Source of the DNA: Candidatus Gastranaerophilales bacterium
Lineage (GTDB): Bacteria; Cyanobacteriota; Vampirovibrionia; Gastranaerophilales; Gastranaerophilaceae
Reading direction: 5' to 3'
NCBI GenBank assembly: GCA_944326425.1
Contig: CALVDX010000001.1
Span: forward strand, 62,001 to 126,000
Length of the DNA: 64,000 bases
Shown here: positions 7,786-12,362 of the stretch, one piece after another
How the letters are laid out: each line of letters starts with the position of its first letter
Numbering within the stretch: the first letter of the stretch is position 1
The notes under the pieces: generated by a model
What the model was told of the DNA's origin: nothing
The model's input: only the letters and a program-made list of their open reading frames with translations
Database searches by the model: none
Program-made: the position numbers and the translations under genes

Positions 7786-8718
7786 TTAAATATTTAAATT
7801 CTCCATAGTTTCTTCTAAATATACTTTGGTTGTATTAAGAGCCTTTGAATATAGTTTGTCATTATTCCAAAAATCAGGACTGGATATATATTGTTTAACA
7901 ATTTTTCGGGCATAAGAACCTACTGCAATACCGTGATAGTTAACACCGCAAAGTTTTGCAAGTTTTAAGGTTTTTGTATTTGTACCGCCTGACAGAACAA
8001 TATAAACCGGTAAGTTTTCGTTTTGAATAATTTCAGCCATTGCAACAGCTTGAAGCGTTGTTTTATAGCTGTCATCGCTTCCGCTCATCGGGATGCCGTC
8101 CGCTTGAATAATTGTTGTGTAGGGAGCTCTGTTTTGTATCAATCGTTTTATGCGTGCAATTACCTGTTTGTTGCCGAGGTTTAATCTGTCTATACAAATT
8201 GACAGCATTCCGTCATAAAGACTATTGATAATATTCCACTTATTGTCTGTTTCTTCTTCATTCTCAGTTGTTGCGTGGAGTTCAATACAGTCTATACCGT
8301 ATGGCAAAAGCTTTGGCAGTACCTGTTTTAAATCAATATCTTTTGATACTAAATCTATCGCATTAACTGGACAGATTTTAGCGCATTTCCCGCAGCCAAG
8401 ACATCGTTCTTCCGTAATTTTTGCGGGATTGAGCGTAATAGCATCGTTAAAACAAATCTTTGCACACTTTCCACAATTTATGCATTTTGAATTGATATTA
8501 GCTTTAAGTACGTGCGGATCGCCTTTTATACCGACACTTACGCATTTATATTTTGCTGCCGTTGCCGCGTCAACAACTTCCGGCTTTGCAGAAAGGTCAA
8601 AAACTTCACATCCTGCATCTGAATATAACTTAACAAGTCTGCGGACTTCTTCAACGGATTCATTTCCGGCACCGCAAACTAATTTGAAAAAACGTCTATT
8701 TTCAAGAAGTTCTTTCAC
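7786..8718 (-). CDS. LdpA-like iron-sulfur protein (cyanobacterial light-dependent period family)
   Basis: This 310-residue protein starts at GTG, 3 nt after the accC stop. It opens FFKLVCGAGNESVEEVRRLV, followed by AGCEVFDLSAKPEVVDAA, then two 4Fe-4S CxxCxxCxxxC motifs (C79/82/85/89 and C106/109/112/116). A C-terminal domain of about 180 residues looks like a TIM-type fold. The order and the KL(I/V)CGA lead match LdpA, which in Synechococcus senses redox state for the circadian clock. No Kai gene or photosystem is in the window, so a clock role is unlikely here. A general redox or Fe-S role is inferred. Confidence 0.7.
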   Translation of the reverse strand: MKELLENRRFFKLVCGAGNESVEEVRRLVKLYSDAGCEVFDLSAKPEVVDAATAAKYKCVSVGIKGDPHVLKANINSKCINCGKCAKICFNDAITLNPAKITEERCLGCGKCAKICPVNAIDLVSKDIDLKQVLPKLLPYGIDCIELHATTENEEETDNKWNIINSLYDGMLSICIDRLNLGNKQVIARIKRLIQNRAPYTTIIQADGIPMSGSDDSYKTTLQAVAMAEIIQNENLPVYIVLSGGTNTKTLKLAKLCGVNYHGIAVGSYARKIVKQYISSPDFWNNDKLYSKALNTTKVYLEETMENLNI

Positions 8719-8721
8719 GTT

Positions 8722-10074
8722 TTACTTTTTGCCTTTGCGTTTATAAAAATCTTCAATAAATCCTGTGTTGAAGTTTCCGCTGATAAAGACATCATCCTCA
8801 ATAATTTCCTGATGGAAAGGAATGGTTGTATCGATACCTGTTACGACATATTCTTTTAAGGCCTGATACATTCTGCGGCGTGCTTCATTACGGGTGTGTC
8901 CCCAACAGATAAGTTTGCCGATCATACTGTCATAATATGGCGGTATTGAGTATCCCGGGTAAACATGGGAATCTACTCTTACACCAAAACCTCCCGGTGC
9001 AAAGTAACCGTCAATTTTTCCGGGGCAGGGCATAAAATCTTTATCCGGATTTTCTGCATTAATTCTGCACTCAATTGCGTGACCGTAAAGCCTTACTTGA
9101 TCCTGTGTAAAACTCAGCTTTTCTCCGGCCGCAACAAGTAACTGTTCGCGCACAATATCAATTTGGGAAATCATTTCAGTAACACAGTGCTCAACTTGAA
9201 CACGGGTATTCATTTCCATAAAATACCATTTACCATCATGGTCAAGCAGAAACTCACAAGTCCCTGCACCCTCGTAATTAATAGCTTTTGCTGCTCTTAC
9301 AGCAGCTTCACCCATTTGTTTGCGTGTTTTTTCATCTATAGCCGGAGAAGGTGCTTCTTCAAGAAGTTTTTGGTGTCTCCTTTGTATTGAACAGTCACGT
9401 TCTCCGAGGTGTATAACGTTTCCGTAGCTGTCGCCGATAATCTGAACTTCTATATGGCGCGGATTTTCAAGATATTTTTCAGCATAAATATCCGGATTGC
9501 CGAAGAACTTTTGCGCTTCTTGCTGACAAAGATTCATATTATCTTCAAGTTCTTCATCGCTCCTTACAATACGCATTCCCTTGCCGCCGCCGCCTGCGGT
9601 TGCTTTAAGTATAATCGGGTAGCCTGCTTTTTTAGCAAAAGCTTTCAACTCTTCAACAGAATGGATAATGCCGGTACCCGGAGTAACAGGAACATCATTT
9701 TCAACCATTGTTTTTCTTGCTGTTGCTTTATCTCCCATTTTACGCATACTTTCAGCACTGGGCCCTATGAATTTAATTCCATGCTGGGTACAAATATCAA
9801 CAAAATCAGCCCTTTCAGACATAAATCCATATCCCGGGTGAATAGCATCAGCACCTGTCATCATAGCTGTAGAAATAATTGCCGGAATATTAAGATAACT
9901 TTCAGAGCTTGGAGCCGGTCCTATACAGTATGCATCAGTTGCAAGCCTTACGTGAAGAGAATTTGCATCGGCCTGAGAATATACTGCAACAGTAGGTATC
10001 CCCAGTTCTCTACACGATCTTATAACTCTTACTGCAATTTCACCGCGGTTTGCGATTAAAACTTTTTTAAACAT
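8722..10074 (-). CDS. accC: biotin carboxylase subunit of acetyl-CoA carboxylase
   Basis: At 450 residues this is the usual length. It begins MFKKVLIANRGEIAVRVIRS and carries the ATP-grasp glycine-rich loop KATAGGGGKGMRIV, the ERDCSIQRRHQKLLEEAPSP segment and the MNTRVQVEHCVTE catalytic motif. It carboxylates the biotin on AccB using ATP and bicarbonate, the first step of fatty acid synthesis in the cytosol. TAAGGAG precedes the ATG. It follows accB by 59 bp containing a small hairpin and is followed by the LdpA-like gene. Confidence 0.97.
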   Translation of the reverse strand: MFKKVLIANRGEIAVRVIRSCRELGIPTVAVYSQADANSLHVRLATDAYCIGPAPSSESYLNIPAIISTAMMTGADAIHPGYGFMSERADFVDICTQHGIKFIGPSAESMRKMGDKATARKTMVENDVPVTPGTGIIHSVEELKAFAKKAGYPIILKATAGGGGKGMRIVRSDEELEDNMNLCQQEAQKFFGNPDIYAEKYLENPRHIEVQIIGDSYGNVIHLGERDCSIQRRHQKLLEEAPSPAIDEKTRKQMGEAAVRAAKAINYEGAGTCEFLLDHDGKWYFMEMNTRVQVEHCVTEMISQIDIVREQLLVAAGEKLSFTQDQVRLYGHAIECRINAENPDKDFMPCPGKIDGYFAPGGFGVRVDSHVYPGYSIPPYYDSMIGKLICWGHTRNEARRRMYQALKEYVVTGIDTTIPFHQEIIEDDVFISGNFNTGFIEDFYKRKGKK

Positions 10075-10098
10075 TTATACTCCTTAGTGCAAAAATCA

Positions 10099-10115
10099 GG
10101 GGCATATATTGCCCC
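10099..10115 (-). promoter_or_regulatory. intercistronic hairpin between accB and accC
   Basis: On the minus strand a 6-bp GC stem GGGGCA/TGCCCC with a 5-nt loop is followed by TGATTTTT. It may act as a leaky terminator or RNA stabiliser that sets the AccB to AccC ratio. Confidence 0.45.
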
Positions 10116-10133
10116 CGGTTTTATTTCTGTCAA

Positions 10134-10586
10134 CTATTCTACATACATTAAAACTTGTCCGTATTCAACGGGTTCGCCGTTCTTCACACAAATTTCAGTT
10201 ACTTTACCTGATACTTCGGACTCAATTTCGTTCATAAGTTTCATTGCTTCAATTATGCAAACGGTATCTCCTTTAGAAATTGTTTTTCCAACCTCTACAA
10301 ACGGGGCTGCATCCGGTGCAGACGCCGCGTAGAAGGTGCCTACCATCGGTGAAGTTATTGGTGTACCGCTTGCTTTGCAGTCGCATTTTGCAGGCGCTTC
10401 TGCTGCAGGCATAACCGGCGGGCAGGCAGGTGCTGCCTGAACGGCTGCAATCGGTTGAACGGCAACTTCCTTAACTTCTTTTCTTAAACTTATAGCTTGT
10501 TCTCCGTCCTCAAGAACAATTTCGGTCAAGCCTTCTTTAGAAAGGATTTTTGCTAATTCTTTAATATATGCTATATCAAATTCCAT
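10134..10586 (-). CDS. accB: biotin carboxyl carrier protein
   Basis: This 150-residue protein has N-terminal [20 protein letters not shown], an Ala/Pro linker and a C-terminal biotinyl domain with EAMKLMNE (biotinylated Lys). It carries carboxybiotin from AccC to the carboxyltransferase. GAGGAAT before the ATG at 10586 fixes the start; a longer frame to 10670 would overlap efp. The linker is unusual in holding a cysteine cluster (ACPP...KCDCK) near residues 75-95. The order efp-accB-accC is conserved in cyanobacteria and many Firmicutes. Confidence 0.95.
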
Positions 10587-10605
10587 TTTTATTCCTCGCA
10601 ACCAT

Positions 10606-11163
10606 CTAACATCTGTCAAGATATTCATTTGTTCTGGTATCGACTCTGATGATATCACCGTTGTTAACAAAGAAAGGAACGTTTACAACTGCTCCGGTTT
10701 CTGTTTTTGCCGGCTTAGTACCGCCTTGTGCTGTATTTCCTTTTTCTGCCGGCGGAGTATCAATAACTTCCAATTCAACGTGTGCAGGAAGGTCAACACC
10801 GAGTATCCTTGAATCGTGCATTAAAACCTGTACGATTAAATTTTCTTTAAGGTATTTAACACCGTCTCCAATCTGATCTTCTGTTAATTGTACCTGTTCA
10901 TAAGATTCGTTATCCATCATAACGTATTCTTTGCCCTCTTTGTAAAGGTATTGCATTTCGCGTCGGTCGAGCATTGCCTTTGCAACTTTTTCACCGGCTC
11001 TGAATGTTTTTTCTATTACGTTTCCTGATTCTACATTTTTAAGCTTTGTACGTACAAATGCGGCGCCCTTGCCGGGTTTTACGTGTAAGAATTCTACAAC
11101 AGTCCATAAACCGTTATCTAAATCAAGGGTTAAACCGTTTTTTAAATCATTTACAGAAATCAT
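10606..11163 (-). CDS. efp: translation elongation factor P
   Basis: The normal length (185 residues) and the domain I loop [15 protein letters not shown] identify EF-P. The lysine in PGKG is the residue that is modified in many bacteria. EF-P rescues ribosomes stalled at polyproline. There is an unusual insert rich in Pro/Lys/Gly ([20 protein letters not shown]) between domains II and III. It is first in the operon with accB-accC-ldpA. Confidence 0.95.
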
Positions 11164-11345: not shown

Positions 11346-12362
11346 ATGAGGTTTGCAAAACAGAAAATAGCGTTTATTTTAATACCCGTGTTGTATCTCG
11401 TGCTATTTTGCATATTGTGCGGGAATTTTAAACAGGATTTTTCAGCTGTCCAGAATCACGCTTATCCCGTTATAAATCTTTTATACATTATATTTTCTGA
11501 TATTGTGTTATCGATATTGATTCTTGTTTTTACATCAAATCTTTATTCCAATATAGCAGGCGGCTTATGGTTTGTTTTGTGTACGGTTTTATATATGCCG
11601 TTTAATTTGAAATTCGGTTTGTTTTGTGATGCGGCGCCGCTTGTTGAGTCTATGCTTGTAACTTATGTGGCTGCTCTTCTTGTGAAATATATACTTAAAA
11701 AATCTAACAAAAGGCTTGTTAACGCGATAGTTGGTGCTTATTTTTCAAAAAAAACGGGTAATAAAATGCTTTCGGGGGTAATTGCCGAGTGCGAGCCTGT
11801 AAAAATGCCGGTTACTATTTTAGAGTGCTCCGTTAATAATGTAGAATCAATTATAGCGAATAATTCACCAAAGGAAGTTTTCAGCAAGATAAATTTTGTA
11901 CTTGATGCGGTGATAAATAAAATTATTGAGAATGAAGGCCGAGTTGATAAGTTTATAGGCACCCGTATTTACGCATACTGGGATAAAAAGGACAGCGCAT
12001 ATCTTGCAGTAAAGGCAGCTATGGAGGCATTGGAATTCCTTGATGCTTCAGCCGGCGAAAAAGATATAAAGCTTAGTATCGGAATCCATCATGACGAAGT
12101 TCTTACAGGTTTATTAGGAACTCCTAAAGTAATGAACTATTCAATTGTATCATCAGCAATAGAAGTTGTGGATACAATTGTAGCAACTTGTTTTATTTAT
12201 AATAAACGGCTTTTGATATCCAGAGAGGTTTACAAACAGGGGTGGCGCAGGCTTTTGGCAATAAAAGCAGCTACTATTAATATAAGAGGAGCTGCTATGT
12301 ATACAGATTTATACGAACCTGTTGAAGTAAAGTCCGGAAAGGCGGGACGTAGCCGTGCTTAA
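11346..12362 (+). CDS. membrane protein with degenerate class III adenylate/guanylate cyclase domain
   Basis: This 338-residue protein has about four N-terminal membrane helices (residues 8-27, 40-63, 70-88, 100-118) and then a cyclase homology domain (about 150-310). It keeps the frame VTIL, EGRVDKFIG, KLSIGIH and TGLLGTPKVMNYSIVSSAIE. The two metal-binding aspartates are lost: FADI reads ECSV (Ser162), and DKFIGD reads DKFIGT (Thr206). It is therefore probably a pseudo-cyclase acting as a nucleotide or protein sensor. It overlaps the next gene by 8 bp, so the two may be co-translated. Confidence 0.65.
   Translation: MRFAKQKIAFILIPVLYLVLFCILCGNFKQDFSAVQNHAYPVINLLYIIFSDIVLSILILVFTSNLYSNIAGGLWFVLCTVLYMPFNLKFGLFCDAAPLVESMLVTYVAALLVKYILKKSNKRLVNAIVGAYFSKKTGNKMLSGVIAECEPVKMPVTILECSVNNVESIIANNSPKEVFSKINFVLDAVINKIIENEGRVDKFIGTRIYAYWDKKDSAYLAVKAAMEALEFLDASAGEKDIKLSIGIHHDEVLTGLLGTPKVMNYSIVSSAIEVVDTIVATCFIYNKRLLISREVYKQGWRRLLAIKAATINIRGAAMYTDLYEPVEVKSGKAGRSRA

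Follow-up and report, generated by a model that had tools for sequence, protein, structure and literature searches.

An LdpA homologue in a non-photosynthetic Gastranaerophilales bacterium and the predicted ferredoxin-bearing barrel of its family

LdpA has been described as a light and redox input of the cyanobacterial circadian clock that acts by an unknown mechanism, and in Synechococcus elongatus it modulates the abundance of CikA according to the redox state of plastoquinone (PMC13421787). A gene for a homologue is found in a stretch of 64,000 nucleotides from Candidatus Gastranaerophilales (contig CALVDX010000001.1, positions 62,001 to 126,000; this whole stretch is hereafter the window), a relative of Cyanobacteria that appears not to be photosynthetic. 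The locus raises the question of what such a protein does in this bacterium, and of whether its place behind accC has a meaning.

The ldpA gene and its product

The reading frame runs on the minus strand from a GTG start at 8718 to a stop codon at 7786-7788, and ldpA is present in one copy in the whole genome (2.0 Mb, 40 contigs, 99.99% complete). The gene and its two cysteine motifs are located as follows.

7786..8718, minus strand: ldpA homologue, 310 amino acids, GTG start (Pfam LdpA_C, E 1.5e-20; AlphaFold pLDDT 95.9, pTM 0.92)
8452..8484, minus strand: cysteine motif I, C79, C82, C85 and C89 (sequence and conservation)
8371..8403, minus strand: cysteine motif II, C106, C109, C112 and C116 (sequence and conservation)

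The product scored above the cut-offs of both Pfam models of the family, LdpA_C (PF12617; E 1.5e-20, 74.1 bits, cut-off 22.2) and LdpA_Fe-S-bd (PF25160; E 5e-9, 36.2 bits, cut-off 27.6). Its closest named genomes, with 78-91% identity, are those of Candidatus Gastranaerophilales, and beyond this order the matches in the scan of named genomes were limited to the ferredoxin region. The KLVCGA segment (KLxCGA in the family) occupies residues 12-17 and is followed in order by the two CxxCxxCxxxC motifs at residues 79-89 and 106-116. The gene is thus confirmed as that of a genuine LdpA homologue, in a bacterium related to Cyanobacteria but not photosynthetic, and it was correctly named in the preliminary description of this DNA.

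The NCBIfam model CircClkLdpA (NF045992) also matched (E 2.6e-43). Its score of 148.5 bits is far under the equivalog cut-off of 450, so that the protein is to be regarded as a homologue and not as a certified functional equivalent of CircClkLdpA. The LdpAs of non-photosynthetic families scored 132-180 bits, and a 352-residue LdpA from a KaiC-bearing genome scored 484.6 bits. The same cut-off shuts out genuine cyanobacterial members as well, because two further cyanobacterial LdpAs reached 322.6 and 414.7 bits. The Gastranaerophilales protein is about 25-32% identical to cyanobacterial LdpAs. With LdpA of S. elongatus PCC 7942, the clock-input Fe-S protein, it shares the profile-defined family, the two cysteine motifs and the putative pocket residues described below; unlike that protein, it is encoded in a genome without kaiABC or photosystem I genes.

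Clock genes, distribution and descent

Within the window, no clock or photosystem gene had been seen beside ldpA, and this observation holds for the whole Gastranaerophilales genome, in which the profiles of KaiC (TIGR02655), KaiB (PF07689), KaiA (PF07688) and PsaA/PsaB (PF00223) found no match. The KaiABC clock that the definition of CircClkLdpA includes is thus missing with all three of its components. In a comparison of 54 genomes, PsaA/B and KaiC above the cut-off occurred in exactly the same 25, and none of the 29 genomes without PsaA/B had KaiC above the model cut-off. These 29 gave only partial or weak matches (KaiC-like in G013 and G044, KaiB-like in G013 and G096). The weak matches of the relatives to the KaiC model were rejected as KaiC, since they are partial and far below the cut-off, and they are probably other RecA-type ATPases. 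The missing clock genes show that LdpA is independent of Kai, not what its function is. One nearly complete cyanobacterium (G245) has KaiB and KaiC and no detectable LdpA; clock and LdpA therefore separate in that direction too.

A search with the Pfam model found LdpA_C in 286 of the 292 genomes sampled from the cyanobacterial phylum, photosynthetic or not, while S. elongatus was the only one of 14 control genomes above the cut-off. Three of the six misses were recovered, G160 and G277 in a second search with a looser threshold and G165 with a full-length profile; a loss of LdpA in these three was rejected, the misses being due to the limited sensitivity of the Pfam model search. LdpA was still missing after the sensitive searches from G126 (a Gastranaerophilales family), from the cyanobacterium G245 and from G050 (64% complete). 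The homologue in this non-photosynthetic relative is thus no isolated case but one member of a family that spans the phylum. One Gastranaerophilales genome (G152) has two LdpA copies (L078 and L087), and the second falls in another sub-branch.

In the literature LdpA has been called exclusive to Cyanobacteria (PMC5520375), which is correct only when the phylum is taken to include its non-photosynthetic classes. Homologues of RpaA, RpaB and NblS in Melainabacteria were reported by Di Rienzi et al., in whose text LdpA is unmentioned (PMC3787301), and in the open-licence papers searched LdpA was nowhere named alongside Melainabacteria, Vampirovibrionia or a TIM barrel.

In an unrooted maximum likelihood tree of 80 sequences, the Gastranaerophilales LdpAs formed one group (95/93) and 21 photosynthetic LdpAs formed another (100/99); the remaining non-photosynthetic families fell outside the latter. 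The LdpAs of a small-genome cyanobacterial genus (g96; L104 in G223 and L267 in G165), in which KaiB, KaiC and PsaA/B are present, grouped with those of the non-photosynthetic G035 and G047, and a single clade of photosynthetic LdpAs was rejected (AU p 0.0004). This placement suggests that LdpA of g96 was replaced by transfer. Because one cyanobacterial genus would thus have taken its LdpA from another lineage, the descent of LdpA appears not to be purely vertical. The last common ancestor of the phylum probably already had LdpA; ancestral presence is the simplest reading, and transfers do occur. Since LdpA is found throughout the phylum, photosynthetic or not, a role independent of light and of the clock is well supported, and the older, light-independent role proposed in the preliminary description is the simplest reading of this distribution.

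Predicted structure and putative ligand pocket

An AlphaFold2 model of the Gastranaerophilales LdpA was built on an alignment of 78 natural homologues (pLDDT 95.9, pTM 0.92). The AlphaFold model of a cyanobacterial LdpA of 352 residues (pLDDT 92.4, pTM 0.92) has the identical order of elements. The predicted strands, at residues 10-14, 39-43, 57-63, 144-148, 171-176, 202-207, 239-243 and 263-266, alternate with helices, and both this pattern of eight strands and helices and the fold matches agree with a TIM barrel of the phosphate-binding type. LdpA is predicted with high confidence to be a single (beta/alpha)8 barrel in which a bacterial 2[4Fe-4S] ferredoxin occupies the loop leading from strand 3 to helix 3, and the models place this loop on the ligand-binding side of barrels of this kind. 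The parts of the protein are encoded as follows.

8521..8718, minus strand: residues 1-66, the opening part of the barrel with strands 1-3 and KLVCGA, which shares homology with the beginning of Ycf23/DUF561
8338..8520, minus strand: residues 67-127, the ferredoxin-like insert in the loop between strand 3 and helix 3; starts with the conserved D67-x-H69
7789..8337, minus strand: remainder of the barrel, residues 128-310, with strands 4-8 and a C-terminal helix; equals Pfam LdpA_C

The plan first read from the sequence, an N-terminal KLVCGA domain, two 4Fe-4S clusters and a C-terminal domain, needs partial revision. KLVCGA and the two cluster motifs are present as described; because both AlphaFold models show an interrupted (beta/alpha)8 fold, the N- and C-terminal "domains" are two parts of one barrel split by the ferredoxin.

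The best PDB matches of both models were barrels with phosphate ligands (VIA Z about 16). TrpA, ribulose-phosphate 3-epimerase, hexulose-phosphate synthase and KDPG aldolase resemble LdpA in fold over about 190-220 residues at this score, but their identity to it is only about 10% and they have no ferredoxin insert. The likeness is one of fold, and similarity to enzyme barrels is no proof of catalysis. Residues 74-125 match 2[4Fe-4S] bacterial ferredoxins and polyferredoxins in sequence; those ferredoxins stand alone or form a terminal domain, whereas in LdpA the ferredoxin is a loop within the barrel.

Invariant in 78 LdpA sequences are K12, D41, S61, C85, C89, C106, C109, C112, E146, H148, G244 and R271. 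Two conserved loops follow the last strands.

7978..7992, minus strand: S243-G-G-T-N247 after strand 7, putative phosphate-binding-type loop, near-invariant in 78 sequences
7906..7920, minus strand: G267-S-Y-A-R271 after strand 8, putative phosphate-binding-type loop, R271 invariant (conservation in 78 sequences)

The invariant or nearly invariant strand-end residues (K12, D41, S61, E146, H148, Q205, D207, R271 and the SGGTN and GSYAR loops) are inferred to line a pocket, in which the ligand would probably be phosphorylated. All eight cluster cysteines are kept in most LdpA members. Five Gastranaerophilales seemed to have lost C116; this was an alignment artefact, as the fourth cysteine is present with shorter spacing. 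In the LdpAs of one family (f6; L110, L112, L114, L118 and L121), H, R or N replaces the second cysteine of motif I, and for this reason the cluster of motif I may differ or be lost there.

With high confidence, the LdpA barrel is a paralogue of Ycf23/DUF561 (PF04481). Profile-profile comparison aligned the two families along the barrel with an E value of 1.6e-17 with the ferredoxin insert and of 8.6e-20 once the ferredoxin columns were taken out; the reversed control gave 0.12. In many LdpAs the initial 60 residues are matched by the DUF561/Ycf23 model, and on the Gastranaerophilales protein PF04481 covers only the first 70 residues with 12.2 bits, below the cut-off of 21.6. LdpA is thus homologous to Ycf23/DUF561 on profile grounds, yet a separate family. 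Five polar strand-end residues are invariant or nearly so in both (K12/K49, D41/D78, S61/S100, E146/E119 and Q205/Q185 in LdpA/Ycf23), and D207 of LdpA corresponds to the likewise acidic E187. Ycf23 lacks the ferredoxin insert, while LdpA has in addition H148, R271, the D67-x-H69 motif and the two clusters. A Ycf23/DUF561 homologue is also encoded in the Gastranaerophilales genome (L246:5183-6031); in four relatives (G003, G020, G140 and G152) LdpA is kept and no DUF561 protein was seen. We know of no enzyme activity, ligand or substrate of either LdpA or Ycf23.

The reading that we prefer, with a probability of roughly two in three (0.68), takes LdpA for an ancestral Fe-S barrel protein, either a redox-linked enzyme of metabolism or a binder of a ligand, which the Kai clock recruited later. 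The pocket at the mouth of the barrel would bind a probably phosphorylated ligand beside the two predicted [4Fe-4S] clusters, and the clusters would pass electrons to or from this ligand, or gate it by redox state. The clock input in S. elongatus would then be a later recruitment of LdpA, and the position of ldpA after accC a recent rearrangement in one genus. The original job was probably metabolic and not timekeeping, because LdpA is found without photosynthesis or clock and an enzyme-type barrel with a ferredoxin is predicted. If LdpA is such an ancestral barrel with a pocket, its way of reading redox state can be asked about in concrete terms, as a matter of which ligand and which reaction, and a circadian input would have grown from an older metabolic protein. 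More tentatively, at somewhat under even odds, LdpA could be an unrecognised class of Fe-S barrel oxidoreductase, in which a ferredoxin was inserted in a Ycf23-like barrel before the photosynthetic and non-photosynthetic classes split, which retains its enzymatic function in anaerobic gut bacteria, and whose redox state was later co-opted as an input by the Kai clock.

The main rival is a non-catalytic redox sensor, in which the barrel serves as a scaffold, oxidation of the clusters alters partner binding, and another target is addressed in bacteria without a clock. The modulation of CikA abundance in S. elongatus (PMC13421787) and the retention of all eight cysteines in most LdpAs fit such a sensor, but a pure scaffold need not share the strand-end K, D, S, E and Q with the cluster-free paralogue Ycf23, and no conserved protein partner was seen in Gastranaerophilales. 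We regard it as possible, on the unlikely side.

Gene neighbourhood

Two neighbours of ldpA come into question as partners. A gene for an R3H/SpoIIIAA-like ATPase lies directly 3' of ldpA, in the same orientation, in 35 of the 44 loci outside Gastranaerophilales, representing 19 of 23 families. The spacing is 3-353 bp, and the pair occurs in photosynthetic and non-photosynthetic loci (35 among L065-L144, for example L067:4447-6057 and L132:4051-5970). In some GC-rich loci the ATPase gene was masked by antisense ORFs and was located by tblastn. The ATPase combines SpoIIIAA-like (AAA) and R3H domains and presumably resembles the plastid-encoded Ycf45. Both this domain content and the recurrence of the pair would suit an LdpA that acts with the ATPase, e.g. 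as the redox-responsive part of a complex acting on nucleic acids; in Gastranaerophilales, however, the pair is split, and in the window's genome the ATPase gene is on another contig (G000:C6:31223-32788), which leaves such a partnership improbable. On the other side of ldpA, the NdhN gene precedes it in six photosynthetic loci and a gene for an Orn/Lys/Arg decarboxylase in ten non-photosynthetic loci.

In the window, ldpA is preceded by three genes on the same strand.

10606..11163, minus strand: efp, first gene of the cluster (translation; order conserved in six relatives)
10134..10670, minus strand: accB, biotin carboxyl carrier protein (PF00364, E 3.6e-24); the start given in the ORF list probably lies too far upstream
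8722..10074, minus strand: accC, biotin carboxylase (TIGR00514, 725 bits)

The order is efp-accB-accC-ldpA and the accC stop lies 3 bp before the ldpA start, so that the earlier observation of ldpA directly following accC is accurate. From this adjacency it had been suggested that LdpA might tie fatty acid synthesis, by way of acetyl-CoA carboxylase, to the redox state. The short gap and the order, which the window shares with six relatives, speak for it; the arrangement is nevertheless confined to this one genus, as accC adjoins ldpA in two of 80 other loci, both from the window's genus and already counted among the six relatives, and in none of the remaining 78. Within the genus, AccC is 96-98% and LdpA 78-91% identical, and the two proteins therefore do not evolve together. 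Since the adjacency is genus-specific and the deeply conserved neighbour is the R3H ATPase gene, accC was ruled out as a partner of LdpA, and the coupling itself is very improbable. Relative to the preliminary description, the wider, phylum-wide context of LdpA is new and the functional link to accC is wrong. That the Gastranaerophilales LdpA is the decaying residue of a clock input since lost, as the absence of Kai genes and the score far below the clock-protein cut-off might suggest, is scarcely credible for a single intact reading frame with all cysteines and pocket residues retained, in a family kept by nearly every small-genome relative sampled.

A terminator-like hairpin lies between accB and accC (10097-10117), and the count of such sites is close to the chance expectation; the hairpin may partly separate the expression of accC-ldpA from that of efp-accB. 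Further along, 11346-12362 on the plus strand encodes a membrane protein in which Pfam weakly matches a class III adenylate/guanylate cyclase domain (8.5e-5).
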